From: a virus
Reading direction: 5' to 3' (one strand)
IMG/VR virus record: IMGVR_UViG_3300032093_000596
Span: 1 to 30,047 of that record
DNA length: 30,047 nt
Made by a program: the position numbers and the translations under genes. Below the pieces are notes generated by a model. That model had not been told where the DNA came from, searched no databases, and was given only the letters and a program-made list of their open reading frames with translations. Positions 4,302-27,985 of the stretch are shown piece by piece; the stretch's first letter is position 1; each line of letters starts with the position of its first letter.

Positions 4302-4661
4302 ATGTTTAAATCCGCAATCGCAGCTGTTGCTGCTGCTCCTTTCCTTGCTTCGGCTGCGTTCGCTGGCCCTTATGTTAATGTAGAATCTAACGCTGGTGTC
4401 GTTGGTTCTGACTACATCGGTACTCTGACCGAAGCACATCTTGGTTATGAAGGTGCTCTGTCTCCTACCGTTAACGGTTATGTTCAGGTTGGTCCTGCAC
4501 TGTCCACTCCTGAAGGTGGTGACGCAACCGTTAAGGTTTCTGGTAAGGCAGGTGCTTCTGTTGCCGCTACCGACAACCTGAGCGTCTATGGTGAGTACTG
4601 GTTCCTGACTGGTGATGACCTGACCAGCAACATCAAGGCTGGTGTGAAGTACACCTTCTGA
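4302..4661 (+). CDS. Putative small outer-membrane beta-barrel protein
   Basis: A 119-residue protein with an export signal (cleavage after AFA, about residue 21) followed by GPYVNVESNAG. The mature part has regularly alternating polar/hydrophobic strands with glycine and aromatic residues (YIGTLTEAHLGYEG, VNGYVQVGPAL, LSVYGEYWF). It ends in VKYTF; a terminal aromatic Phe after alternating residues is the recognition signature for insertion of outer-membrane barrels. Similar AGPYV-type proteins occur in T4-like cyanophages without known function. It shares the AGPYV start, strand pattern and terminal Phe with the next gene. A role in altering the host outer membrane is inference. Confidence 0.75.
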   Translation: MFKSAIAAVAAAPFLASAAFAGPYVNVESNAGVVGSDYIGTLTEAHLGYEGALSPTVNGYVQVGPALSTPEGGDATVKVSGKAGASVAATDNLSVYGEYWFLTGDDLTSNIKAGVKYTF

Positions 4662-4794: not shown

Positions 4795-5178
4795 ATGAAA
4801 GCAATCGCTCTTGCCGCAATGGCACTTCCGATGATTGCGGCACCTGCCCTTGCTGGTCCATATGTAGAAAGTAAGACCACCTCTGGTATCTCTGTTACCA
4901 GTGATAAGAGCACCTACAAAGGTTCTCAAACCGAACTTCGTGTTGGTTATGATGAAAAGGTTGGTAAGTCTGGTCTGAAAGTCTATGGCGAAATCGGTCC
5001 TGGTTATGAGTTCAACACTGGTAAAACTAAGAGTGAAGGTGTTGCCGTTGGTGAAGTAGGTTTCTCTTATCCTCTTGCTAAGAAAGTTTCCCTCAAAGGG
5101 AAAGTTGCTGGTGAGTATGGTATGAGTTCTGAGGTCCTTGATCTTGGTGGTGAAGTTAAAGTTCGTTATAGCTTCTGA
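4795..5178 (+). CDS. Putative small outer-membrane beta-barrel protein, paralogue of the previous
   Basis: A 127-residue protein with a signal peptide (cleavage after ALA, about residue 20) followed by GPYVESKTTSG. Alternating beta strands (TELRVGYDEKV, LKVYGEIGPGYEF, AVGEVGFSYPL, EVKVRYSF) end in a terminal Phe, as for outer-membrane barrels. AAGGAG lies nine bases before the ATG. It has its own terminator before and after, so it is probably transcribed alone or by read-through. About six to eight strands would fit, too small for a general pore. It shares the AGPYV junction with the 4302 product. Confidence 0.75.
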   Translation: MKAIALAAMALPMIAAPALAGPYVESKTTSGISVTSDKSTYKGSQTELRVGYDEKVGKSGLKVYGEIGPGYEFNTGKTKSEGVAVGEVGFSYPLAKKVSLKGKVAGEYGMSSEVLDLGGEVKVRYSF

Positions 5179-8959: not shown

Positions 8960-9078
8960 GTGGTGGAGTCAATCCCCAATATGCCCGTGATGGAGACACG
9001 ATAAAAACCCTGGTGCGGATGGGGTATACCCCGCCCAGTTTCTTGCTTCTGGACAAAGAGCAAGTGGCGTGCATGTAA
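8949..9078 (+). pseudogene. Possible remnant reading frame without a start codon
   Basis: After a TAA, an open frame reads GVNPQYARDGDTIKTLVRMG and then YTPPSFLLLDKEQVACM before a TAA at 9076. It has protein-like composition but no start codon before an internal ATG at 9019. The stretch also contains the palindrome GGGGTATACCCC (9021-9032) and a hairpin CTTGCT/AGCAAG (9042-9064). It may be a gene remnant or a structured leader instead. Confidence 0.25.
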
Positions 9079-9089
9079 AGACCTAATGA

Positions 9090-9117
9090 GGACGGCTTGC
9101 GCGAGTCGTCCTTTTTT
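9090..9117 (+). terminator. Rho-independent terminator
   Basis: GGACGGCT (9090-9097) pairs with AGTCGTCC (9104-9111), one G-T pair and a 6-base loop, followed by six T. It marks the border between the small-gene region and the glycan island. Confidence 0.9.
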
Positions 9118-9141: not shown

Positions 9142-9939
9142 ATGATTGGTTTTAATCACTTAGGAAGACTTGGACGCTTGGGAAACCAAATGTTTCAATA
9201 TGCTGCTCTACGCGGTATTGCTGCTAAGCAGGAAGTCAACTATTGCCTTCCACTTTATAAAGAAGCAGTTGATGATGGTCTGGGAAATCCAAACAGAACA
9301 GAACTATTTGACTGCTTCACAATGGAGACGGTAACTCCATTGAATATTCAAATGATTGATATTGATAGACCTATTATTGGTGAAAATACATTCAACTTCA
9401 ACCAAGAACTATTCTCTAACTCTTTTGACTGGATTAGTTTATATGGGTTCTTTCAGTCTGAAAAGTATTTTAAGAATGTAGAAGATACTATTCGCAAGGA
9501 CTTCACATTTAAGAGTGAAATACTTGAACCTTGTGCAGATATGATGGAAGGCATTGGGCAGGCAGTTGGTCTCCATATCCGTAGAAAAGACTATCTGACC
9601 AACCCAAACCATTGTGCTCTTGATATTGAATATTATAAAAAGGCATTGATGAAGTTCCCTGATGATGCTCAGGTCATTGTGTTTTCGGATGAACCACAAT
9701 GGTGTATGGAACAAGAAATATTTGCAGATGACCGTTTTATGGTTTCTGAGAATGAGAATGGATATATTGATATGTGTTTAATGAGTATGTGTAGTGGATA
9801 TATTATTGCTAACTCTTCATTCTCTTGGTGGGCAGCGTGGTTGGGAAATAGGGGAAAAGTTATTGCACCAAAGAAATGGTTTCCTTCAAATGATAAGGAC
9901 ACTAAAGATCTATATCCCGAAACTTGGGAGGTAATTTAA
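9142..9939 (+). CDS. Alpha-1,2-fucosyltransferase-like glycosyltransferase (GT11)
   Basis: A 265-residue enzyme of family GT11, the length usual for bacterial members. Visible motifs are GRLGNQMFQYAALRG (residues 11-25), GLHIRRKDYL (143-152, the GDP-fucose binding HxRRxD signature), FSDEP (181-185) and IANSSFSWWAAWLGN (222-236). The family moves fucose from GDP-fucose to the 2-position of galactose. The ATG at 9142 puts the first motif at the normal distance. It is the first gene of the island, 24 bases after a terminator. Its TAA overlaps the ATG of the GT6 gene. No GDP-fucose synthesis genes are in the window, so the host or another phage region must supply donor. Confidence 0.9.
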   Translation: MIGFNHLGRLGRLGNQMFQYAALRGIAAKQEVNYCLPLYKEAVDDGLGNPNRTELFDCFTMETVTPLNIQMIDIDRPIIGENTFNFNQELFSNSFDWISLYGFFQSEKYFKNVEDTIRKDFTFKSEILEPCADMMEGIGQAVGLHIRRKDYLTNPNHCALDIEYYKKALMKFPDDAQVIVFSDEPQWCMEQEIFADDRFMVSENENGYIDMCLMSMCSGYIIANSSFSWWAAWLGNRGKVIAPKKWFPSNDKDTKDLYPETWEVI

Positions 9940-10664
9940 TGAAACTTGCAGACTTAGCAGTTGTTTTTATTGGGACTAACAAGTATCTAAACTTTCTCCC
10001 ATCATGGTATGAATCTTGTGAAGAGTATCTTCTACCAGGACATAAGAAGCAATACTTTGTTTTTACGGATGGTGAGTTAGATGAACTTCCTGATAATATT
10101 TCACTTTATCATCAGGAGCACCTTCCTTGGCCATATATTACACTCTACAGATTTTCTACTATTCTGAAAGCGTATGAGGACATTTGTAAGTATGATTATC
10201 TTCTATTCCTTGATGCCGATATGCGTTTGGTGGACACTGTAAAACCAGAAGAGATATTAACTGATAAACCTTATATTGGTGTTCATCACCCTTGTCATTT
10301 TCTGGGAATGAATCCACATACAAAGTTTCCAGGAGCATTTGAAACTAATTCAGATTCATCGGCATGTATTACAGATGAAGATGATACAACTACTTATTTT
10401 CAAGGATGTTTGTGGGGAGGCAGAGTTCCAGATGTGATAGATATGATGAAAGAACTTCAAAAAAGAACTGAAGATGATCTTTTAAGGAATGTAATAGCAG
10501 TCTGGCACGATGAGAGTCATCTCAATAAATTTTATTCCGAAAGAGTAGATGATGTCCATATCCTTAGTCCATCATTTGCTTACCCAGAACTATTTTCAGA
10601 ATATTGTAATTTTGAACCAAAAATAGTTCACCTTGCAAAAGAAAACTCTAAGTATCACCAATAG
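9939..10664 (+). CDS. ABO-type alpha-1,3-galactosyl/GalNAc transferase (GT6)
   Basis: A 241-residue protein matching family GT6, which includes the blood-group A and B transferases. Visible are VFIGTNKYLNFL near the N-terminus, a DxD metal motif in LLFLDADMRLVD (DAD at 92-94), TTYFQGCLWGGRV (151-163) and WHDESHLNKFYS (189-200), then SPSFAYPE. The family adds alpha-1,3 Gal or GalNAc, typically to a galactose already carrying alpha-1,2 fucose. Bacterial members usually have NxN instead of DxD; a phage GT6 with DxD has been noted in cyanophage P-SSM2. It directly follows, and overlaps, the GT11 gene, so the two may act in order. Confidence 0.85.
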   Translation: MKLADLAVVFIGTNKYLNFLPSWYESCEEYLLPGHKKQYFVFTDGELDELPDNISLYHQEHLPWPYITLYRFSTILKAYEDICKYDYLLFLDADMRLVDTVKPEEILTDKPYIGVHHPCHFLGMNPHTKFPGAFETNSDSSACITDEDDTTTYFQGCLWGGRVPDVIDMMKELQKRTEDDLLRNVIAVWHDESHLNKFYSERVDDVHILSPSFAYPELFSEYCNFEPKIVHLAKENSKYHQ

Positions 10665-10670
10665 TATAAA

Positions 10671-11369
10671 ATGAACCTTAAAGATTTAGAACTTGTTACT
10701 GCACTTGACCAAAACTTTTATGATAGTTTTAATACTTTCATGATTAGTTCTGACTTGAAAGTGTTTGGAAAACTTTTAGCTAGAACACAATTATTTGAAA
10801 AAGTCAAGGATGTTCCTGGAGATATTGTAGAGTGTGGTGTTTTTAAAGGAACTGGTCTTTTTACTTTTCTTAAATTGAAAAGATATTTTTGTCCAAATAC
10901 TTATAAAAAGGTAATTGGATTTGACTTTTTTAATTCTGATGAACTTACATCTACTCTAAAGAATCAAGATCAAACTGCCATGAAGACTTTGTTTGATGGT
11001 AGAAATTTTGAGCATGACTCAGACTTTAAACAAAAACTAGATCTCAGTATTCGTTCTTCTGGTTTTCAGGATCATGAATATGAGTTAATACCTGGTGATA
11101 TTTCTAAAACTGTAGTAGAATATGTAGAGAATAGACCAGGTGCAAAAATTTCATTGCTATACCTTGATTTGGATTTGGAAGTACCAACATACAATACTTT
11201 AGTTTCTTTATGGGATAGAGTAAGTAGTGGTGGAATAGTAGTCTTTGATGAATACGCTTATCATAACTGGTCTGAGTCGAAAGGAGTTGATAAGTTTTTC
11301 TCCGATCATGATGTTAAAATTAATTCATTAAACTTTTTTGCCCCATCTGCATATGTTGTTAAGCCATGA
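10671..11369 (+). CDS. TylF/MycF-like SAM-dependent sugar methyltransferase
   Basis: A 232-residue Rossmann-fold methyltransferase. PGDIVECGVFKGTGL (residues 49-63) is the SAM-binding motif I of the TylF family. LLYLDLDLEVPTYNTL (about 162-177) holds the Asp residues that bind metal and the sugar hydroxyls, and GGIVVFDEYAYHNWSESKGVDKFF follows. Family members O-methylate sugars such as macrocin; in surface glycan loci they cap or modify residues. It lies six bases after the GT6 gene and overlaps the next gene by four bases. Confidence 0.85.
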   Translation: MNLKDLELVTALDQNFYDSFNTFMISSDLKVFGKLLARTQLFEKVKDVPGDIVECGVFKGTGLFTFLKLKRYFCPNTYKKVIGFDFFNSDELTSTLKNQDQTAMKTLFDGRNFEHDSDFKQKLDLSIRSSGFQDHEYELIPGDISKTVVEYVENRPGAKISLLYLDLDLEVPTYNTLVSLWDRVSSGGIVVFDEYAYHNWSESKGVDKFFSDHDVKINSLNFFAPSAYVVKP

Positions 11370-12736
11370 ATAAACTTGTAATTTTTGATCTTGATGGTGT
11401 ATTGATTGATAGTAGAGATATGCATTACGAAGCACTTAATTGTGCTCTCGAAAAAGTAGATCCAAAATATAAAATAAGTAAAGATGAGCATCTAAGTTCC
11501 TATGATGGACTTCCAACTTCTAGAAAGTTGGCGATGTTGACTGAAAGTAAAGATCTTCCTGTAGAAAAGCATCAGCAGGTTTGGGAAGATAAGCAAAAAG
11601 CAACTCTTGAAATCTTCTCACATCTTGAGCATGATTATGAGTTGATGCACTACTTCCAACAACTCAAAAGTAAAGACTATCAAGTTGCTGTTGCTAGTAA
11701 TAGTATTCGCAATACTGTTAAACTAGTTCTCCTTAAACTTGGACTTCTAGAGTTCATTGATTACTATGTGAGTAATGAAGATGTAGTCAAGAACAAACCA
11801 TTTCCAGAAATGTACTGGAAGTGTATGACTGCATGTAATGCCCTTCCTAAGGATACAGTAATCTTCGAAGATAGTCATATTGGTAGACAAGGTGCTTTAG
11901 ATAGTGGTTCACACCTTGTACCTATTGAAAATAGGTATGACCTTAACCAGAGTAAAATTGATAAAGTATTTAAAATATTCTCATCTCAAAAAGTATCACA
12001 TATTCCTTGGAAGTCTGAAAAAATGAATGTTCTTATTCCCATGGCTGGTGCAGGCAATAGATTCTCTTCTGCTGGATATACATTCCCCAAACCTTTGATT
12101 GAGGTCAATGGGAAACCAATGATTCAGGTTGTTATTGAAAACTTGAATATTGATGCAAACTATACTTTCGTTGTTCGTAAAGAGCACTATGAGAAGTATA
12201 GTCTACAGTATCTACTGACGCTGATTGTACCTGGATGTAACATTGTTCAGGTAGATGGTCTTACAGAAGGTTCTGCTTGCACGACACTTTTAGCAAAAGA
12301 ATATATTGATAACGACCATCCGCTGCTACTAGCAAACTCCGACCAATTCATGGAGTGGAACAGTAATGAATGTTTGTATGCATTTAATGCAGATGGTATT
12401 GATGCTGGAATTCTAACCTTTAAGGCAACTCATCCAAAGTGGTCTTATGCAAAAGTTGGTGAAGATGGTTTCGTATCTGAAGTTGCTGAGAAGAAACCTA
12501 TCAGTAATGATGCTACTGTTGGCGTCTACTTCTGGAAGAAAGGTTCTGATTATGTTAAGTACGCAGAGCAGATGATTGAGAAAGATATTAGAACTAATAA
12601 TGAGTTTTATATCTGCCCAGCATTTAATGAGGCTATTCTTGATAATAAGAAGGTGAGAGTTAAGGAGATTGAAAGGATGTGGGGTATTGGAACTCCAGAA
12701 GACCTTAACTACTTCTTGGAGCATTACAATCCATGA
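11366..12736 (+). CDS. HAD phosphatase fused to a sugar nucleotidyltransferase
   Basis: A 456-residue two-domain enzyme. The N-terminal part is a HAD-superfamily phosphatase: FDLDGVLID (residues 7-15, nucleophile Asp8), an ASNS motif II, a KNKPFPEMY lysine motif and VIFEDSHIGRQGA. From the Met at residue 220 begins a nucleotidyltransferase domain: IPMAGAGNRFSSAG, FPKPLIEVNGKPMI, LLANSDQFMEW and a C-terminal EIERMWGIGTPEDLN. One polypeptide could dephosphorylate a sugar or polyol phosphate and activate a sugar phosphate to an NDP-sugar. The internal Met may also serve as a start. ATGA overlaps link it to both neighbours. The sugar is not predictable. Confidence 0.85.
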   Translation: MNKLVIFDLDGVLIDSRDMHYEALNCALEKVDPKYKISKDEHLSSYDGLPTSRKLAMLTESKDLPVEKHQQVWEDKQKATLEIFSHLEHDYELMHYFQQLKSKDYQVAVASNSIRNTVKLVLLKLGLLEFIDYYVSNEDVVKNKPFPEMYWKCMTACNALPKDTVIFEDSHIGRQGALDSGSHLVPIENRYDLNQSKIDKVFKIFSSQKVSHIPWKSEKMNVLIPMAGAGNRFSSAGYTFPKPLIEVNGKPMIQVVIENLNIDANYTFVVRKEHYEKYSLQYLLTLIVPGCNIVQVDGLTEGSACTTLLAKEYIDNDHPLLLANSDQFMEWNSNECLYAFNADGIDAGILTFKATHPKWSYAKVGEDGFVSEVAEKKPISNDATVGVYFWKKGSDYVKYAEQMIEKDIRTNNEFYICPAFNEAILDNKKVRVKEIERMWGIGTPEDLNYFLEHYNP

Positions 12737-13185
12737 GACTGATAGCACATAGAGGAAATGTGAATGGACCAGATCCTTCAGTAGAAAATAGTCTAGATTA
12801 TATTGATACTGCTATAAATCTTGGTTACGATGTTGAGATTGATCTTAGATGTGAATCTAATGATTTTTATCTTGGACATGACGAATCTCAGTACCATGTC
12901 TTCATGGAATGGTTGGTAGAAAGAAAAAATAATCTTTGGATACATTGCAAAGACTTTGCTTCTCTTGAATTTCTTTCAAAGTGTGATACTGATTTCAACT
13001 ATTTCTGGCATGATACAGATGATCATACTCTTACCAGTAAGGGGTATATCTGGAGTTATCCTGGACAACCACACAGTTCTAACTCTATTGTAGTTTTACC
13101 AGAAAATACAGAAACGTTCAAATTTTCTGCTAGTGAGTATGACTGTTATGGAATATGCAGTGACTATGTTGGGAGAATGGGGTAA
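12733..13185 (+). CDS. Glycerophosphodiester phosphodiesterase-like protein, short
   Basis: A 150-residue protein that begins IAHRGN (residues 4-9), followed by ENSLDYIDTAINLGYDVEIDLR (18-39) and YLGHD (46-50). These are the HRG, E-N, E-x-D and GHD motifs of the GDPD fold, which cleaves glycerophosphodiesters with two acid/base histidines. The protein is only about 60% of usual GDPD length, so the barrel is shortened. In glycan loci such small GDPD-like proteins may cleave glycerophosphate modifications. The substrate is unknown. Coupled to the HAD fusion gene by overlap. Confidence 0.75.
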   Translation: MRLIAHRGNVNGPDPSVENSLDYIDTAINLGYDVEIDLRCESNDFYLGHDESQYHVFMEWLVERKNNLWIHCKDFASLEFLSKCDTDFNYFWHDTDDHTLTSKGYIWSYPGQPHSSNSIVVLPENTETFKFSASEYDCYGICSDYVGRMG

Positions 13186-13992
13186 ATGAGAGTAGCAGTT
13201 TGTTATAGTGGGTTTCTGAGGAATATACAAAAAACATTCCCAAACATATCACAGCAAATGCTAAAGGGTCATGACGTTGACTTTTTCATTCATACATGGA
13301 ACGTTCCAGAATATTCTGAAGAAATCTTTTATTCAAAAAGCACAATATGTCCCAAGTTAATCTTGGTTGAAGAGCAGAAAGCATTTGAAAAAAATCCTTA
13401 TGGATTTATAAACTGCAACACAACTCCAGAGCAGTATCTAAATGATCTTAAGTCTTCTGGAGAAGATAAAAAATTTTTTGAGAAACCATCTAAGGAAAAT
13501 AATTTTGACTTTAACAAAGATCTTGAAGTTGTAAAGTTTGGATATTATAGTAGTTTTCCTTATAACTTTTTATCTCAGTTCTACTCCTTTTATAAAGCGA
13601 TTGACCTGAAGAAGATATATGAACAGAACAACGGATTTGAATATGACTGTGTTATTCGAATACGACCTGATGTTTATCTGAACGAACAAATAGATTTGAA
13701 CTCATTGAATATGTCCTATATGAATATATTCGATGCACCATATCATAAAGGAACTAATTTAACTGTTAATGATCACTTTGCTTGTTCATCATCAAAACTC
13801 CTTGATTTGTATGGAGAATGCTTCTTATTCTTATCCACCTATTACTTTATCTATGGAGTTGACTTCATTCAAGAGATAGTATTGGGTAAGCACTTTGAAG
13901 TCAATAATTTTTATATCAATAAATTATCAACCAGTTATCTCATTACGAGAGATAGTATAGATAGAGAAACTTATCCAAAGTTTATACGATGA
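13186..13992 (+). CDS. Putative glycosyltransferase, paralogue of the next gene
   Basis: A 268-residue protein that starts MRVAVCYSGFLRNIQKTFP and contains DVDFFIHTWN (about residues 30-39), YDCVIRIRPDVYL and NDHFACSSSKL. The 'CxSGxxR...D.F.HxW...IRxRxDV' pattern occurs in proteins of polysaccharide loci that are probably GT-A-like glycosyltransferases; I do not know a characterised member. It shares the pattern with the next gene (VCFSGQPRF, FGHLWF, FKIRTDVNV), indicating an old duplication. The ATG directly follows the upstream stop, and the next ATG overlaps its stop. Confidence 0.7.
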   Translation: MRVAVCYSGFLRNIQKTFPNISQQMLKGHDVDFFIHTWNVPEYSEEIFYSKSTICPKLILVEEQKAFEKNPYGFINCNTTPEQYLNDLKSSGEDKKFFEKPSKENNFDFNKDLEVVKFGYYSSFPYNFLSQFYSFYKAIDLKKIYEQNNGFEYDCVIRIRPDVYLNEQIDLNSLNMSYMNIFDAPYHKGTNLTVNDHFACSSSKLLDLYGECFLFLSTYYFIYGVDFIQEIVLGKHFEVNNFYINKLSTSYLITRDSIDRETYPKFIR

Positions 13993-14738
13993 AAGTTGCG
14001 GTTTGCTTTTCTGGGCAACCTCGTTTTGTAAATGAGTGTTCTCCTAGTATCCTGGAAAATGTATTTGGGAATTATTCTGTTGATGTTTTTGGGCATCTGT
14101 GGTTTGATGAAAATCTTTTAACAAAACCATATAAGTATGGTGGATCTGGTGGATGGAAAGACCAGAGAATTTCTGAAACCGCGATTGATGATTTTAAAAG
14201 AATATACAACCCTGTTAAAATGATAGTTGAAGAGAGTTGTGATTTTTATGATCCATATATGGAAGAAGACTTTGAAATATCTCAAAACAGATATTGGAAA
14301 GGATCATTAAATGAACCAAACTATAAGGAAAGGCAAATTAAAAATACTTTGTCTAACTTTTATAGTATGAGTGAAGTTAATAGACTCAAACTAAAGCATG
14401 AATATAAAAATAGATTTAAGTATGATTGGGTATTTAAAATAAGAACAGATGTAAATGTCCATACAAAAATAAATTTGTCTACCTATAACCAAAGTTCTCT
14501 CAACTGCACATCCTTAATGCAGCAACCACCACATATTAATGACTGGATTTGTTTCGGTGGATCTGATATAATGGATGTGTGTATGGGAGTTTTTCCCGTC
14601 TTCCAAAGAGTTTTTGATTTGACTAAGCATCATCGTGATGGCGCATGGGATAATGAAACACTTCATGTTCAACTCTTAGATCAAATGATGGTGAATATTG
14701 AGAGACACCCTATTGCTTTATCAGTACCTAGATTTTAA
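13989..14738 (+). CDS. Putative glycosyltransferase, paralogue of the previous gene
   Basis: A 249-residue protein with MKVAVCFSGQPRF at the start, VDVFGHLWF, YDWVFKIRTDVNVHTKI around the middle and INDWICFGGSDIMDV. This is the same pattern as the 13186 product, with the RTDV in place of RPDV. A donor-binding role for that Asp motif is inference from its position in the family. Overlaps the upstream gene by four bases (ATGA). Confidence 0.7.
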   Translation: MKVAVCFSGQPRFVNECSPSILENVFGNYSVDVFGHLWFDENLLTKPYKYGGSGGWKDQRISETAIDDFKRIYNPVKMIVEESCDFYDPYMEEDFEISQNRYWKGSLNEPNYKERQIKNTLSNFYSMSEVNRLKLKHEYKNRFKYDWVFKIRTDVNVHTKINLSTYNQSSLNCTSLMQQPPHINDWICFGGSDIMDVCMGVFPVFQRVFDLTKHHRDGAWDNETLHVQLLDQMMVNIERHPIALSVPRF

Positions 14739-14750
14739 AATTAAACAAGA

Positions 14751-15713
14751 ATGAAAATTATTATTTGGGGATATCCGCTCCATTCTCATACACATTCATA
14801 TATCCATGCTGCTTTTTATAAAGCATTTACTTATATGGGATATGAAACATATTGGTTCCATGATGGTGAATATCCCGATAACTTTAATTGGGATGACTGT
14901 GTATTTTGGACGGAAGGATTTGCTGATAAAAATATTCCGCTAAACAAAACCAGTACCTACTTTGTTCATGTCTGTCCAGATCCATCAAAGTATATCAATG
15001 CTGGAGTGAAGAAGTTTATTGACGTTCGCTATAATCATTTGTGGCACAAAGATCACAACTATGATTATACTTTAGATAAAACTAAAGTTGAAAAAGTTGG
15101 ACCTTGTTGCTATCTTCAACCAAAGAAAAATCATCGAGTTCAAGTTTTAAACAACTATCATCAGTACTGGATTGAAGACTATGATAAGTTTTATGTGACT
15201 TGGGCAACTAATATTCTTCCACACGAATTTAACTTTGAGGATATTATCCACCCTAGAGAAAATAAAATCTATTTCAGTGGAAATATTTCTGCTCATGGTA
15301 GATGTGAAAACTTCAGTACATTCAAACCTTTTATCTTGGAATGTGAGAAGAATGGAATAGATTTTATTCATAACGACCCATTTTCAAATCCTCTAAGTGA
15401 GGATGAGGTTATATCGAGAACCAAGAAGTCAATTATCGGTGTTGATATTCGTGGACCAGAACATCTTCGTAATGGATATGTTCCTTGTAGGGTATTCAAG
15501 TCTATTAGTTGGGGTCATCTTGGGACTACAAATTCTCCAGAAGTTTATGCAGAACTTGATGGTAATTGTATTCTTCAAGAAGATACTGCACAACTGTTCT
15601 ATGATTCTATGGAAAAAAGAACGGATTATGAGTACATTAAAAATGCTATGATGTATGTTCAAGAAAACCATACATACGTTAACAGAATTAAATCTATTAT
15701 GAGTTTGCTATGA
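14751..15713 (+). CDS. Putative GT-B glycosyltransferase
   Basis: A 320-residue protein (MKIIIWGYPLHSHTHSYIH...). The N-terminal half resembles a Rossmann-like sugar acceptor domain. The C-terminal half has IYFSGNISAHGR, KSIIGVDIRGPEHLRNGYVPCR and VFKSISWGHLGTTNSPEVYAEL, which resemble the donor-binding part of GT-B enzymes, where a Gly-rich stretch and a Glu contact the nucleotide sugar. The exact family cannot be named. It sits 12 bases after the upstream stop and overlaps the next gene by four bases. Confidence 0.6.
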   Translation: MKIIIWGYPLHSHTHSYIHAAFYKAFTYMGYETYWFHDGEYPDNFNWDDCVFWTEGFADKNIPLNKTSTYFVHVCPDPSKYINAGVKKFIDVRYNHLWHKDHNYDYTLDKTKVEKVGPCCYLQPKKNHRVQVLNNYHQYWIEDYDKFYVTWATNILPHEFNFEDIIHPRENKIYFSGNISAHGRCENFSTFKPFILECEKNGIDFIHNDPFSNPLSEDEVISRTKKSIIGVDIRGPEHLRNGYVPCRVFKSISWGHLGTTNSPEVYAELDGNCILQEDTAQLFYDSMEKRTDYEYIKNAMMYVQENHTYVNRIKSIMSLL

Positions 15714-16516
15714 AAGACGTAACTATTGTATCTGCCCTTTTCAATATTGCGCGTGAGGGTATGGATGGTAGAAATTGGGAAGAGTACTTAGAGTGGTTTG
15801 ATATTATGCTCAAACTCAAGTGCCCTATGGTTCTTTTTGTGACTGAAGATGTTCGAGAGTTTATTGAAGAGCGGCGGCTTTCTGTACCAACTTCTATTAA
15901 CGTTCAAACTGTAGAAGAGATTCCTTATTATTATCTGAAAGATAAGATTGATACTATTATCGAGTCTGAGGAATATATTAATAAGATTTCTGATCCAGAT
16001 AGAATTGAATGTAAGCATTCACTTTACTCTATTGTTCAGTATTCTAAGTTCAAGTGGTTAGAGCAGGCAATTGAAGAAAACCCACATGGTAGTAAGCATT
16101 TCTTCTGGTTAGATGCTGGTGGTTCTCGCTTCTTTGATGGATATGATCTATCCAATGACTATCCAAGTGCTAGTGCTATTGAGTCTCTGAATGAGATGGG
16201 TGATAGTTTCCTTATTCAGATGAATATGGAGTATTATAAAGATCTCGCTGGTGCCGATGAACTTCCAAAAGAATATCTGTTAGATAATCGCTCTTACGTT
16301 CTGGGTTCCATGTTTGGTGGTGGTCCAGAATCTATCAAGAAAGTTTCTAAGTATATGGATGAGATCTTTGTTGATGAAATGATAGGTAATGGTTATGTAA
16401 ATAACGAACAAATTGCCTTTGGATATTTGGTTAAGAAATATCCTGATGACTTTTCTGTGTTTGAGAGGTATAATGGTAAGCATATGGAACTGTTCACTGA
16501 ACTTGGTAAGCAATGA
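15710..16516 (+). CDS. HtrL/YibB (WlaTC)-like glycosyltransferase
   Basis: A 268-residue protein resembling the HtrL/YibB family: TIVSALFNIAREG at the N-terminus, YLEWFDIMLKLKCPMVLFVTEDV (about residues 25-47), EEIPYYYLKDKI, and KHFFWLDAGGSRFF, where the WLDAG motif takes the place of a DxD-like metal site. SYVLGSMFGGGPESI and NNEQIAFGYLVKKYPD follow. Members occur in LPS and capsule loci and are thought to transfer sugars. Coupled by ATGA overlaps on both sides. Confidence 0.78.
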   Translation: MKDVTIVSALFNIAREGMDGRNWEEYLEWFDIMLKLKCPMVLFVTEDVREFIEERRLSVPTSINVQTVEEIPYYYLKDKIDTIIESEEYINKISDPDRIECKHSLYSIVQYSKFKWLEQAIEENPHGSKHFFWLDAGGSRFFDGYDLSNDYPSASAIESLNEMGDSFLIQMNMEYYKDLAGADELPKEYLLDNRSYVLGSMFGGGPESIKKVSKYMDEIFVDEMIGNGYVNNEQIAFGYLVKKYPDDFSVFERYNGKHMELFTELGKQ

Positions 16517-17457
16517 GAATTGTATTAATAGGACCTGGTATTATGCCTATCCCACCAACAGGGTGGGGTGCTGTTGAGATCCTGATATGGGATACTAAGA
16601 ACGCATTAGAGCAACTTGGACATGAAGTTCATATTGTGAATACCAAAGACGGTAGGCAGATCATTGATGAGATAAACACCTTTAGACCTGATTTTGTTCA
16701 TGTTCATTACGATGAGTTCATTCCCATCGTTCCTTATATTCAATATCCAAATGCTATTACTAGTCATTTTGGATATCTTGAACGCCCAGAGATGTTCAAT
16801 GGATACATCAATATCCTGAATGCCTTTACTCAGATTAAACCAAACGTTTTCTGCCTCTCTGAGGGCATTAAGAACGTTTATAAGGTTATGTCTGGTATTC
16901 CTAGTGAAAGGTTGTTTGTGACCCCTAACGGTGTCGATACCTCTAAGTTTAGAGTAGTGCAAGAACCAAAGTATCCTGACCGTAGCATCTACCTAGCAAA
17001 GATTGATTATCGTAAGAGGCAGCATTTGTTTCAGTCTATCAGCAGTTTGTGGTTTGCTGGTAACAATGCAGATCCACGATTTGATACAGGTAAAAATTAC
17101 TTAGGTGAGTGGACAAAGAGTAAATTATTTAATGAACTAACTGAGTATGGAAACCTGGTTCTTCTGTCTGATGGTGAGGCACATCCTCTAGTTTGTATGG
17201 AAGCACTTGCTGCTGGACTTGGTGTGGTTGTCTGTGAGTGGGGTAAAGCAAACCTTGATATCAACAAGGAGTTCATTACAGTTATTCCTGAGTCAAAGAT
17301 AAACGACATTCAATATGTTGAAGATGCTATAATAAAGAATAGAGAATACTCTATTTCTCATAGAAATGATATTATAGAATATTCCAAAGAATTTGACTGG
17401 ACTTCAGTTATTGGGAAATACTATATTCCTGCTGTAAGAGAAATTATTGGACGATAG
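16513..17457 (+). CDS. GT4-type glycosyltransferase
   Basis: A 314-residue GT-B enzyme: IGPGIMPIPPTGWGAVEILIWD at residues 6-27 (the 'PP..WGG.E' acceptor-domain start of GT4 enzymes), PDFVHVHYDEF, a FVTPNGVDTSKF hinge (about 136-147) and a C-terminal LLSDGEAHPLVCMEALAAGLGVV with the E-x7-E signature region. The family uses NDP-sugars with retention of configuration. The donor-domain half is slightly short. Overlaps the upstream gene by four bases. Confidence 0.88.
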   Translation: MRIVLIGPGIMPIPPTGWGAVEILIWDTKNALEQLGHEVHIVNTKDGRQIIDEINTFRPDFVHVHYDEFIPIVPYIQYPNAITSHFGYLERPEMFNGYINILNAFTQIKPNVFCLSEGIKNVYKVMSGIPSERLFVTPNGVDTSKFRVVQEPKYPDRSIYLAKIDYRKRQHLFQSISSLWFAGNNADPRFDTGKNYLGEWTKSKLFNELTEYGNLVLLSDGEAHPLVCMEALAAGLGVVVCEWGKANLDINKEFITVIPESKINDIQYVEDAIIKNREYSISHRNDIIEYSKEFDWTSVIGKYYIPAVREIIGR

Positions 17458-17462
17458 TGTTG

Positions 17463-18254
17463 ATGGACAAGAATAAGGCAGCATTCAAACTTAAAGGACT
17501 TCCTCCCATTTATTGTATCAACCTTGATGGAAAACCTGATAGGTGGAAGTATATGGAAGACCAGTTCAAATACTGGGAGATAGAAGACTACACTCGTATC
17601 TCAGCATATGATGGTAGAGAAGATGACCTGAGTGATATTATCAAGGGTAGGTATCCTGATAACATGACTTCTGGTGAGGTTGGATGTGTAACATCTCATC
17701 TTAAGGCAATGAAGCATTTTCTAGAAACATCAGATGCACCATGTGCTTTGGTGATGGAAGATGACTGTGATATTTCTACAGCATCGCATTGGCCATTTAA
17801 ATGGAGGGACTTTTACTCTAAGGTTCCTTATGACTATGATGTTATTCAACTCGCTATTATCAACCCAGCACAAGTTCATATGAAACTCCATCGGAGGTTC
17901 GTAAATGACTTTTCTACTGCCTGCTATATGATTACAAGACATCATGCCCAGAAACTTATCGATTTGCATTGTCGTGAAGACAAGTATAAGTTAGATCAAG
18001 GTGTTAAACCCAGAGCAGTAGCTGATGACTTAATCTATAATTCTGGAAATACTTTTGCTATTCCCCTGTTCCTTTACAAGGTAGAACTTGGTTCTGATAT
18101 TCATGACATTCATGTAGATATTTTTCATAGAAGTAGTCATGATGGTCTTTGGAACTTCTGGAAAACTCAAGCTATTGATATTCCAGATTGGAATGTTATA
18201 TTTGACTATGATCCTTATTTTGGAACATTACCTCCAGGATTTGAAGGAAAGTAA
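17463..18254 (+). CDS. GT25-type glycosyltransferase (LPS-type)
   Basis: A 263-residue protein of family GT25. Visible are IYCINLDGKPDRWKYME (residues 17-33), YTRISAYDGRE, SGEVGCVTSHLKAMKHFLE (about 69-87), ALVMEDDCDIS (EDD metal motif) and a long C-terminal acceptor part. Family members transfer galactose or glucose in lipo-oligosaccharide cores. The gene overlaps the previous stop if a GTG at 17457 is used; ATG at 17463 is taken here. It is the last gene of the island and is followed by a terminator. Confidence 0.88.
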   Translation: MDKNKAAFKLKGLPPIYCINLDGKPDRWKYMEDQFKYWEIEDYTRISAYDGREDDLSDIIKGRYPDNMTSGEVGCVTSHLKAMKHFLETSDAPCALVMEDDCDISTASHWPFKWRDFYSKVPYDYDVIQLAIINPAQVHMKLHRRFVNDFSTACYMITRHHAQKLIDLHCREDKYKLDQGVKPRAVADDLIYNSGNTFAIPLFLYKVELGSDIHDIHVDIFHRSSHDGLWNFWKTQAIDIPDWNVIFDYDPYFGTLPPGFEGK

Positions 18255-18289: not shown

Positions 18290-18315
18290 AGGGGGATTGC
18301 GTCCCCTTTATTTTT
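18290..18315 (+). terminator. Terminator ending the glycan island
   Basis: GGGGA (18292-18296) and TCCCC (18302-18306) form a stem around TTGCG, extendable by G-T and A-T, followed by TTT-A-TTTTT. Confidence 0.75.
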
Positions 18316-19769: not shown

Positions 19770-19817
19770 CATCAACAACGTTACGGAATGTAACTTTCCG
19801 AAACAAGTTGTAACACT

Positions 19818-19929
19818 CCTGCCGCTTGACCGAGACTAGGCAGGGTTACCAATCCGTCTCTCATATCCCCGCTAAGGGTGCGGGGAGCATAGTATCTCCA
19901 CCATTTCCCTGATGGTCTTACTATCTTTT
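19818..19929 (+). ncRNA. Structured psbA leader RNA with a predicted pseudoknot
   Basis: CCTGCC (19818-19823) pairs with GGCAGG (19839-19844). The loop segment GAGAC (19832-19836) pairs with GTCTC (19856-19860) downstream, giving an H-type pseudoknot. A hairpin CCCCGC/GCGGGG (19867-19885) follows. Then ATAGTA (19889-19894) pairs with TACTAT (19919-19924) around an inner ACCAT/ATGGT helix, directly followed by CTTTTT just upstream of the psbA ATG. The last element looks like a terminator, so the leader could act by attenuation. It may be related to the PhotoRC RNA motifs described upstream of psbA in marine phages; I cannot confirm the match. Confidence 0.55.
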
Positions 19930-19936
19930 TAAAAAA

Positions 19937-21274
19937 ATGGCTGCTTCTATTGCACAACAACGACAATCGAATACTTGGGAACAATTCTGCAACTGGGTCA
20001 CCTCAACCGATAATCGTCTTTATGTCGGTTGGTTCGGAGTCCTGATGATTCCTTGCCTGCTTGCTGCTACGACTTGTTTCATCATCGCCTTCATCGGTGC
20101 TCCCCCTGTGGACATTGATGGAATCCGTGAACCCGTTGCTGGTTCACTCATGTACGGAAACAACATCATCTCTGGTGCTGTTATTCCTTCGTCCAATGCT
20201 ATTGGACTGCACTTTTACCCCATCTGGGAAGCTTCTTCCCTAGATGAGTGGCTATATAATGGAGGACCTTTCCAACTGGTCGTCTTCCACTTTCTGATCG
20301 GCATCTATGCTTACATGGGACGCGAATGGGAACTTTCTTACCGACTCGGTATGCGTCCTTGGATTTGTGTTGCCTACTCTGCACCCGTTGCTGCTGCTAG
20401 CGCAGTGTTCCTGGTCTATCCCTTCGGTCAAGGATCCTTCTCTGATGCGATGCCTCTGGGGATTTCAGGCACTTTCAACTACATGCTTGTTTTCCAGGCA
20501 GAACACAACATTCTTATGCATCCTTTCCACATGCTGGGAGTTGCTGGGGTCTTCGGTGGTTCTCTTTTCTCTGCTATGCATGGATCTCTTGTCACCTCTT
20601 CTCTTGTCCGCGAGACGACAGAGAATGAGTCACAGAACTATGGATACAAGTTCGGACAAGAAGAAGAGACCTACAACATTGTAGCCGCTCACGGTTATTT
20701 CGGTCGCCTTATTTTTCAATATGCTTCCTTTAATAACTCCCGTTCGCTGCACTTCTTCCTTGCTGCCTGGCCTGTTGTAGGCATCTGGTTCACCGCTCTT
20801 GGTGTTTCCACGATGGCTTTCAACCTCAACGGCTTTAATTTCAACCAGTCTATTGTTGATAGTCAAGGAAAAGTTATTAACACTTGGGCTGATGTTCTCA
20901 ACCGTGCTGGACTGGGCATGGAGGTAATGCACGAAAGGAACGCTAGACTTGTTGGTGTTCTTGCCTAGTAATAGGCATTAGTAAAATCGGGTTAAACGGG
21001 GAAACTCTCTATGAGACAATCCCGTACCAAGTCAGAAAGGGTTTAAGTTTTCTGAAAGGTCTAACGACTAGGTAGTGAGTCCCAACAATAATCTACCCAC
21101 GAATGCCCGACTCCTTAATAAACATAAGGATGAAGAGATAGTCTGAACTTACTGGCGACAGTAAGAAGTAGAGGATAAAGAACCACTACGATAACACAAT
21201 TGCACAACTTCCCACTTGACCTTGCTGCCGCAGAAGCAACTCCTGTTGCTCTAACTGCTCCCGCAATCGGTTGA
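19937..21274 (+). CDS. psbA: Photosystem II D1 protein, gene interrupted by a group I intron
   Basis: Exon 1 is 19937-20944 (336 codons) and exon 2 is 21203-21274 ([19 protein letters not shown]... then stop), giving a 359-residue D1. D1 binds the PSII reaction-centre chlorophylls, QB and the Mn4CaO5 cluster. Residue numbers are canonical: His332 and Glu333 (MHERNA) lie in exon 1; His337, Asp342 and the mature C-terminus Ala344 lie in exon 2. Without splicing, translation would continue RLVGVLA and stop at 20968. The gene is more GC-rich than its neighbours. A structured leader precedes it and a strong terminator follows. It replaces damaged host D1 so that light energy is available until lysis. 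Confidence 0.97.
20945..21202 (+). mobile_element. Group I intron in psbA, no internal reading frame
   Basis: 258 nt between exon ends ...GCT and CAC... and ending in G, as group I introns do. P1 is clear: the exon end GAACGCT (20938-20944) pairs with the guide GGTGTTC (20954-20960), with U-G at the splice site. P2 is TGCCTA-GTAA-TAGGCA (20962-20977). The middle has GTTAAACGGGGAAA and ACAATCCCGTACCAAG, typical of the P3-P4 core, and GAGATAGTCTGAAC near 21137 resembles the P7 3' strand. An intron in psbA accompanied by a nearby endonuclease gene is known in cyanophage S-PM2. Confidence 0.92.
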
Positions 21275-21353: not shown

Positions 21354-21941
21354 ATGGATTTGCACCAACTAGTAATATCTGAATGTGATAGAAGAGGATT
21401 GGAACTAATTCATCTTCCCGAAAAACTTGTTCGTCGTTCTGCTGATGTGATTGTAAGTTGTCCCTGCACAGGTCAACGAAATATGAGTATAAGAAACTTT
21501 ATTGTTACTTATGAAAAAGGTGGAGAAGCATTCTGTTGTAAGAGGAAATCAAAAGTTGGAAAAAATAATCCTGCATTTGGAAAACCAACTTGGAATGCTG
21601 GAACTGTTGGTGTATCAAAGAGTTATGGATTTTTTGGTTTTAAGGAAGAATGGGCAGACAGAGAAGATTACCTTTATTTTATAGAAACAATCTATGGAAC
21701 TTATAAGATAGGTAGGTCTTTTCACGGAATAAAATATAGGTTCACAGAAACTGTAAAAGAACTTGGTGAATGGAAAGCATCTCATAAGGAGGTATTTGAT
21801 TGTGAAAGATATATCCTAGATACATACAAACATCATCAAAATAAAATTGATGGTATAATAGGTGGTTCAGAGCATTTTGTAAAAGAACTACCGATACAAG
21901 AAGTTATAGATTACGCAAATCTGAAATTAAAAACTAATTGA
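21354..21941 (+). CDS. GIY-YIG/T5orf172-like free-standing endonuclease
   Basis: A 195-residue protein between psbA and psbD. The first 60 residues include CPCTGQRN and CCKRKS cysteines, possibly a zinc element. SKVGKNNPAFGKPTWN (67-81) resembles the NUMOD3 DNA-binding motif of homing endonucleases. YLYFIET (106-112), YKIGRS (117-122), an Arg nearby and Glu151 in FDCERYILDTYKH fit the Y...KIG...R...E layout of the GIY-YIG-related T5orf172 fold. It probably cuts psbA or psbD of phages lacking the insert. It overlaps no photosystem gene but has its own late promoter. The exact family needs profile comparison. Confidence 0.75.
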   Translation: MDLHQLVISECDRRGLELIHLPEKLVRRSADVIVSCPCTGQRNMSIRNFIVTYEKGGEAFCCKRKSKVGKNNPAFGKPTWNAGTVGVSKSYGFFGFKEEWADREDYLYFIETIYGTYKIGRSFHGIKYRFTETVKELGEWKASHKEVFDCERYILDTYKHHQNKIDGIIGGSEHFVKELPIQEVIDYANLKLKTN

Positions 21942-21943
21942 TT

Positions 21944-22450
21944 ATGAAAGAAGAATGGAAAAACATTGTAGTTGATGGAAAAGTTTATGAAGGATATTCT
22001 GTATCAAATTATGGGAATATAGTTACTCATAAAAAACAATGTGGAGGAAATATTGGTTGGATTTTTGACCCCAATTTTAGAAAGATTAAAAAAGCAAGAA
22101 AACAAAATAGGGGAATGAGTATATCTTTGACTTTTCCGAAAGGTTTTTTTGATTATGAATATAGATTAACTGCATCCAGTAAAAATAGCATTACAAGAGA
22201 TAGAAGAGTTCATCAATTGGTAATGGAAACTTTTTGTCCCATTGATGAAAATCCGCCAGTTCCAATTGAAGAATGGGAAAGAACTCCTGAAAGTATAAAA
22301 CAAATAGTAAGAGAGTGTATCTATATAAACCATAAAGACCACGACTTTACGAATAATAGATTGGATAATCTGGAATATGTTACTCCAAGACAAAACACTA
22401 GAAAAGCAGTTGAGCATTATGGAAAGCATCATTGGTGCTATAAGAACTAA
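21944..22450 (+). CDS. NUMOD4-HNH homing-type endonuclease
   Basis: A 168-residue protein. EEWKNIVVDGKVYEGYSVSN (3-22) with YGNI is a NUMOD4 domain, found at the start of many homing endonucleases. The HNH part is VHQLVMETFCP (89-99), then INHKDHDFTNNRLDNLEYVT (128-147) and NTRKAVEHYGKHHW. The ATG at 21944 is two bases past the stop of the previous endonuclease gene, so the two are probably co-translated. Located just before psbD. One of these two genes is likely the counterpart of the free-standing endonuclease reported beside the psbA intron of S-PM2. Confidence 0.85.
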   Translation: MKEEWKNIVVDGKVYEGYSVSNYGNIVTHKKQCGGNIGWIFDPNFRKIKKARKQNRGMSISLTFPKGFFDYEYRLTASSKNSITRDRRVHQLVMETFCPIDENPPVPIEEWERTPESIKQIVRECIYINHKDHDFTNNRLDNLEYVTPRQNTRKAVEHYGKHHWCYKN

Positions 22451-27853: not shown

Positions 27854-27860
27854 GACCTTA

Positions 27861-27953
27861 CGTTCATCGGAGAAATCCGACGCAAGTAGGACGGCGGAAC
27901 GGAACGTTCATTCGCTATTCGCATATAGCGAACGCAAACCGCCCGAAGGAACG
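27861..27953 (+). ncRNA. Glutamine-riboswitch-like RNA (glnA / Downstream-peptide type)
   Basis: The sequence carries the hallmark blocks of the glutamine riboswitch group: CGTTCA (27861-27866), a P2 hairpin TCGG/CCGA, then CGCAAGTAGG (27881-27890), and CCGAAGGAACG (27943-27953). P1 pairs CGTTC with GAACG. P3 is GGCGG (near 27894) with CCGCC (27939-27943), but its loop is expanded and holds an extra hairpin TTCGCTAT/ATAGCGAA (27911-27932). Downstream-peptide RNAs of cyanobacteria and cyanophages lie upstream of short genes, as here. The consensus usually reads ACGGAAGTAGG; here one G is C. Confidence 0.75.
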
Positions 27954-27985
27954 GGACTAACAATCTCATTCTGGAAGAAATCCTA

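Follow-up and report, generated by a model that had tools for sequence, protein, structure and literature searches.

Can a phage make a blood-group-like antigen? The question is raised by two neighboring genes on IMGVR_UViG_3300032093_000596, a virus contig of 30,047 nt that we analyzed over the whole record (positions 1 to 30,047; hereafter the window). A preliminary description had read them as an alpha-1,2-fucosyltransferase-type gene of family GT11 and an ABO-family gene of GT6, whose members are known mostly from vertebrates and bacteria, and had named a blood-group-like antigen as their possible product.

The photosystem, tRNA and outer-membrane genes of the contig, and also its relatives, mark it as that of a T4-like cyanophage. 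It carries psbA, psbD and thyX (read from ORF translations), and Pfam matches add speD and two cyanophage outer-membrane proteins. Tandem outer-membrane beta-barrel proteins (Phage_OMP) at 4302-4661 and 4795-5178 could also alter the host surface. A PhotoRC-II RNA lies 5' of psbA (19805-19900), and a group I intron match covers 20933-21165 at the psbA end region, where the gene may be split; the ORFs behind this match (21354-21941 and 21938-22450) resemble homing endonucleases. There is also a glutamine riboswitch match at 27859-27957 (37.6 bits, gathering 35).

GT11 and GT6 start an 11-gene plus-strand glycan cluster (9142-18254) that is AT-richer than the remaining window (G+C 35.0 % versus 40.1 %). 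Behind them, all on the plus strand, we found a TylF-type methyltransferase (10671-11369; PF05711, 5.9e-11), a fusion of a HAD phosphatase with a sugar nucleotidyltransferase (11366-12736; PF13419, 8.1e-27; PF00483, 3.7e-11), a run of unnamed genes, an HtrL/YibB family gene (15710-16516; PF09612, 2.7e-21), a GT4-type glycosyltransferase (16513-17457; PF13439, 1.2e-10) and, as the final cluster gene, a GT25 glycosyltransferase of LPS type (17457-18254; PF01755, 3.9e-13; phrog_2835). The first unnamed gene (12733-13185) matches phrog_34507, of unknown function (6.2e-30); the next two are paralogues that match phrog_13607 (13186-13992, 3.3e-23, with DUF7796 under its cut-off, and 13989-14738, 1.8e-54); and the last is an ORF (14751-15713) with no PHROG match at E 0.001. 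A terminator-like hairpin 3' of the cluster (18290-18308, plus strand) ends a unit of ~9.2 kb. A pair of functions similar to the fused phosphatase and nucleotidyltransferase recurs in the clusters of relatives, and the fused gene may make an unusual activated sugar.

The two enzymes and their active sites

The GT11 gene (9142-9939, plus strand) runs from an ATG at 9142 to a stop at 9937-9939 and encodes 265 residues, and the GT6 gene (9939-10664, plus strand) runs from an ATG at 9939 to a stop at 10662-10664 and encodes 241 residues. The overlap that had been described within 9142-10664 comes to one shared base (TAATG, position 9939), and both frames are intact. Both family assignments were borne out by profile matches and by folds. 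GT11, predicted to be of alpha-1,2-fucosyltransferase type, matches PF01531 with E 1.2e-28 (100.7 bits, above the cut-off of 23.9); no NCBIfam model matched it at E 1e-5, and no close solved relative was found by sequence. Its AlphaFold model (mean pLDDT 94.2, from an alignment of 74 sequences) shares the fold of GDP-fucose-dependent transferases, with Z scores of 14.5 to POFUT1, 13.7 to Arabidopsis FUT1, 13.5 to NodZ and 13.4 to FUT8. The alignment places the motif HIRRKDY at residues 145-151 (9574-9594, plus strand), where 62 of 63 rows keep the His, the Asp and both Arg residues; we take HxRRxDY to be the motif of the GT11 family. Its donor need not be GDP-L-fucose and may be another GDP-L-sugar.

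GT6 matches PF03414 with E 8.1e-24 (84.4 bits, above the cut-off of 25) and the NCBIfam model Gltr_6 with 191.4 bits, below its cut-off of 250, a shortfall that does not rule out the GT6 family because that model describes a narrower subfamily. By sequence, BoGT6a (4ayj) comes first at 1.8e-20, followed by human ABO chains at ~1e-18. The AlphaFold model of GT6 has a mean pLDDT of 95.4 (alignment of 75 sequences) and superimposes on BoGT6a (4ayj) with Z 32.0 and an rmsd of 1.5 over 222 residues, and on the human ABO transferases with Z ~28, so that the predicted structure, a GT-A fold of GT6 type, also agrees with the family. Catalytic residues are conserved in the alignment: WHDE with the catalytic Glu192 (residues 189-192; 10503-10514, plus strand) is kept relative to BoGT6a and the human enzymes, and K234 aligns with the conserved C-terminal Lys of BoGT6a. 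Among the residues that hold UDP and sugar in BoGT6a, Thr10, Tyr13, Trp66, Thr70 and Arg73 are kept, as are Trp189, His190, Asp191, Glu192 and Lys231 (BoGT6a numbering), while the departures are Asn69 to Ile, NAN to DAD, Gly157 to Cys and Thr134 to Ala. Thr134 contacts the acceptor sugar in BoGT6a; it aligns with Ala in a loop whose alignment is unsure, owing to an insertion.

The phage enzyme thus resembles two known systems and differs from each. BoGT6a of Bacteroides ovatus, which is of NXN type, has the same fold, ~30 % identity, WHDE and the conserved Lys; in contrast, it has NAN where the phage enzyme has DAD and AGG where it has QGC, its acceptor-side loop is shorter, and it belongs to a separate clade. 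Human GTA and GTB, which are of DXD type, share the fold, 26 % identity, the DXD and WHDE motifs, but they carry LGG or MGA and an acceptor Thr in place of QGC and Ala, and they are Golgi enzymes with a membrane stem, whereas the phage GT6 is a bare catalytic domain. The DAD metal-site motif (residues 92-94; 10212-10220, plus strand; DVD in human) places GT6 among the metal-dependent type, and metal dependence is predicted on this basis. In the available text of PMC3961637, DXD and a need for metal coincide in the bacterial GT6s assayed. The donor-site tripeptide QGC (10401-10409, plus strand) aligns with human codons 266-268 and matches none of the five vertebrate tripeptides given in the available text of PMC6351642 (LGG, AGG, MGA, GGA and HAA); nor was it found in the accessible text of the blood-group literature searched. 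UDP-Gal is the slight favorite as predicted donor, because Cys at the third position of the tripeptide would crowd an N-acetyl group. Forssman synthase has Ala at this third place and yet uses GalNAc, which makes the argument from size a weak one.

Distribution of GT6 and its linkage to GT11

The DXD motif had been set against the NXN motif usual in bacteria, and this contrast holds in part. DAD was confirmed in the window, and a motif starting with N is found in 63 of 81 bacterial GT6s (from the best 80 of 215 loci), but the other 18 have DAD as well. The idea that DXD is special to this phage was not upheld: 97 of the 98 viral loci examined (18 plus the top 80 of at least 547 relatives, some from shared contigs) have DAD together with QGC, the exception, L019, being incomplete, and the available text of PMC3961637 has GT6 from two cyanophages by 2014. 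On these alignments, DAD marks a cyanophage clade and some bacteria, not the window phage alone. Within the 15 named phage loci, DAD with QGC occurs in 9, another DXD with AGG in 4 (P-SSM2, AG-345-E02 and two huge phages) and NAN in 2 (gut contigs). In L029 and L030, two phage genomes of more than 600 kb, GT6 carries AGG and either DVD or DSD. A tree built on 138 rows gives the QGC clade of cyanophages, which has 45 rows and includes the window, an SH-aLRT of 99, and the 70-row NXN clade one of 98; the human enzyme and P-SSM2, on long branches, are not firmly placed. The GT6 of P-SSM2 and its relatives is like that of the window in being a DXD-type phage enzyme whose glycan cluster includes GT11, but it has 33 % identity, DVD and AGG and falls outside the QGC clade, and a P-SSM2-type cluster also holds GMD and GDP-L-fucose synthase.

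Two observations concern bacteria. Among 386 genomes from the phylum to which a Melainabacteria record belongs, 11 have GT6; ten loci were retrieved, and the six of them in the motif table comprise five of NXN type and one (L204) with DAD and QNC. In a Saprospiraceae frame of 946 aa (L116:5110-7947), a glycosyltransferase domain of PLOD type is joined to a GT6 with DAD and QGC.

GT11 is present in 50 of 51 non-redundant viral GT6 loci and adjoins GT6 in 38 of the 50, always upstream, where 10.9 would be expected from position. The 79 non-redundant bacterial loci have GT11 in 57 and next to GT6 in 30, with 13.2 expected; here it lies after GT6 in 20 cases, before it in 9 and is fused to it in 1. 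We derived the expected counts from a within-locus model applied to our own ORF calls, and none of 100,000 simulations reached the observed neighbor count in either the viral or the bacterial set. Before redundancy was removed, 97 of the 98 viral loci (18 plus the top 80 of at least 547) had GT11, L105 being the single exception, and so did 58 of 80 bacterial loci (best 80 of 215). In a record titled Candidatus Magasanikbacteria (L190), a frame of 527 residues carries GT6 (1.5e-29) and GT11 (1.4e-31) end to end. Above-chance adjacency in phages and bacteria, together with this natural fusion, supports action of GT11 and GT6 in sequence, and the view of the two genes as a functional pair gains from it.

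The linkage is not universal. GT11 is absent from the flanks examined in 22 of 80 bacterial GT6 loci (best 80 of 215), so GT6 need not always have GT11; it is missing from 10 of 18 bacterial DXD loci as compared to 11 of 58 NXN loci, and two to three genes (two in each as counted) separate the pair in P-SSM2 and ACG-2014f. The split pairs and the GT11-less DXD loci, along with the QGC tripeptide and the longer acceptor-side loop with its Thr-to-Ala change, would fit a reading in which the operon and its host-surface target are the same but GT11 and GT6 act at different places, or GT6 adds a different UDP sugar to a non-fucosylated acceptor, with nothing blood-group-like as the result. The fusion and the above-chance neighbor counts in two separate sets argue for sequential action instead, and we regard separate sites of action as possible but doubtful. 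That the pair is decaying or incidental cargo with no maintained function appears very improbable: a patchy distribution among cyanophages, and nothing else, points that way, whereas the frames are intact, the catalytic residues are conserved across the 45-row clade and the operon order is conserved.

Nucleotide-sugar supply and the operon leader

Relatives of the window differ in the sugar-supply genes found beside GT11. The clusters of DSL-LC02 and P-SSM2 hold GMD and GDP-L-fucose synthase. In Bellamy and S-CAM9, the gene overlapping the GT11 start is labeled as an NAD-dependent or UDP-glucose epimerase, and we found that its best solved relatives are GDP-mannose 3,5-epimerase (2.3e-82 for Bellamy and 6.2e-81 for S-CAM9). 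The label UDP-glucose 4-epimerase (S-CAM9 and others) was rejected on this match, GalE being far behind, and so was the NCBIfam reading of the S-CAM9 and Bellamy gene as a GDP-L-fucose synthase, since the GDP-mannose 3,5-epimerase match is far better. The stretches SAC, YGWEK and K..PAA of the plant enzyme, presumably its active-site residues, are kept in six such epimerases.

When we counted both routes in the 57 non-redundant viral loci with GT11 and GT6, the epimerase was present in 27, the synthase in 16, both in 0 and neither in 14 (a Fisher test on the two routes gives 2.7e-6, with kinship ignored); the flanks of IMG/VR loci span 4 to 5 kb, and route genes may sit beyond them. Parsimony on the GT11 tree calls for at least five switches between routes. 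The nine complete genomes divide in the same way: five have the epimerase (Bellamy, SynMITS9220M01, S-CAM9, S-PRM1 and S-8S55, all at E <1e-147), four have GMD and synthase (DSL-LC02, DSL-LC03, P-SSM2 and ACG-2014f, where GMD passes its cut-off and the synthase scores 422 to 462 bits against a cut-off of 500) and none has both, with a GMD-like gene of ~164 bits, below the cut-off of 415, also found in Bellamy and SynMITS9220M01. The phage collection has 37 records with a match to the epimerase and 74 with one to the synthase, and among the matches listed S-SCSM1 alone (two records, one phage) has both routes, with GMD, synthase and epimerase adjoining one another downstream of an annotated wcaG RNA. 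S-SCSM1 has no GT6 match, so exclusivity is broken for GT11 phages generally, not for GT6-bearing ones. The epimerase is correctly named in one (MK867354, S-SCSM1) of the 37 matching phage records, or one of the 32 annotated ones; across L025:8062-9183 and the 31 other annotated phage records, it goes mostly under other names, such as UDP-glucose 4-epimerase or NAD-dependent epimerase.

Within GT11 itself, Thr occupies position 149 in 13 of the 15 rows with the fucose route, and the 26 epimerase-route rows have Gly there in 22 cases and Thr in 4 (counted without L029, L083 and L059), and even the best columns did not separate the two contexts cleanly. GMD, GDP-L-fucose synthase and GDP-mannose 3,5-epimerase are all absent from four contigs (43.5 to 96.8 kb) with an identical GT6, and so the window phage would use a host donor or genes outside these contigs. 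The nearest GT11 to that of the window (L039) adjoins a synthase. Our first guess is that the window phage would use host GDP-L-fucose as GT11 donor, and that in some relatives the first sugar may be L-galactose. The many relatives pointing to GDP-L-galactose, together with QGC and the Thr-to-Ala change, leave the blood-group antigen of the preliminary description unestablished as the product.

Upstream of GT11, a wcaG RNA, a candidate riboswitch, forms the operon leader (8985-9078, plus strand; RF01761, 70.3 bits, gathering 42, E 2.2e-11). The match covers the full-length model, and its structure does not differ from RF01761. Ten bases past the RNA begins a terminator-like hairpin with a T run (9088-9113, plus strand; 11 pairs, –15.3 kcal/mol), and GT11 follows at 9142. 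The core-and-tail pattern of wcaG was found in 26 of 114 sources, 16 of them distinct, and in 14 of the 16 distinct leaders a T-run hairpin of –10 kcal/mol or lower lies within 75 bases, as compared to 16 of 1500 random control stretches; the hairpins vary in sequence and keep their pairing. No wcaG match was present in S-CAM9, P-SSM2 and ACG-2014f within the stretches searched. The first gene behind 15 leaders is an epimerase in 6, a radical-SAM-like gene in 4, GT11 in 3 and GMD in 1, and in the remaining one an adenylyltransferase-like gene precedes an epimerase. Radical-SAM-like first genes at L067:442-1263 and L070:438-1247 match a viperin model weakly, with scores well under its cut-off. 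Cyanophage wcaG RNAs are described as riboswitch candidates that precede exopolysaccharide or high-light or light-induced genes in the available text of PMC2864571, PMC9602691 and PMC9964418. With a wcaG RNA and then a terminator at the head of the operon, expression is probably set by metabolite-responsive attenuation. Tentatively, and with the greater weight of probability against it, we put forward the fuller reading that the same pair is fed by either an L-fucose or an L-galactose route, so that related phages make host caps that differ yet are parallel in structure, with the wcaG riboswitch and terminator tuning the operon to a metabolite.

A proposed capping pathway and its probable target

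The reading we prefer, with about equal confidence for and against it, is that GT11 and GT6 are sequential capping enzymes on one glycan, directed at the host surface and expressed from a wcaG-led operon. The families, folds, motifs, recurrent linkage and leader architecture were computed, and from them we infer the substrates, order of action, linkage, target and regulation that follow. After infection, the phage would transcribe the unit when the leader permits. GT11 would use a GDP donor to place an L-sugar (L-fucose, or probably L-galactose in many relatives) on a terminal sugar, probably galactose, and the metal-dependent GT6 would next draw on a UDP donor to add a D-sugar (galactose slightly favored) in alpha-1,3 linkage beside the L-sugar, which is the order of the ABO pathway. 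A short branched cap would in this way be added to a glycan built from host precursors, and the TylF-type methyltransferase may finish it. E. coli O86 offers a parallel, as its WbnK (GT11) and WbnI (GT6) make a blood-group-B-like O unit. In the available text of PMC4506291, WbnJ, WbnK and WbnI act sequentially on the repeating unit; these are bacterial O-antigen genes, likened here by description.

The likeliest target would be a host surface glycan, LPS or exopolysaccharide, during infection. Chloroviruses provide a precedent for glycans on the virion, and decoration of fibers or capsid rather than the host would suit the tail-fiber gene annotated a few kb after the cluster in ACG-2014f and P-SSM2. 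Flippase, polymerase and ligase are absent from the cluster's Pfam matches, so a cytoplasmic acceptor would be possible. However, GT25 and HtrL are surface-glycan families, and bacteria, which have no virion to decorate, share the GT11-GT6 linkage. The cluster content therefore leans toward a host surface glycan over a fiber, and we consider a virion target unlikely.

Phage GT6s are already known, as are wcaG RNAs that precede exopolysaccharide genes and glycan clusters. The QGC clade, the recurrent pair with its fusion, the exclusive donor routes and the hairpin behind wcaG were not found in the literature searched (subscription journals and supplements lay outside it). A large cyanophage DXD clade whose donor-site signature is new adds a third setting in which to study the evolution of donor choice, and two alternative nucleotide-sugar routes beside one GT11 allow a direct test of L-fucose against L-galactose. 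The leader is a defined RNA with which to seek the ligand of wcaG. If it is true that the cap alters the host surface, the pathway would be a candidate for excluding competing phages in very abundant photosynthetic cells.
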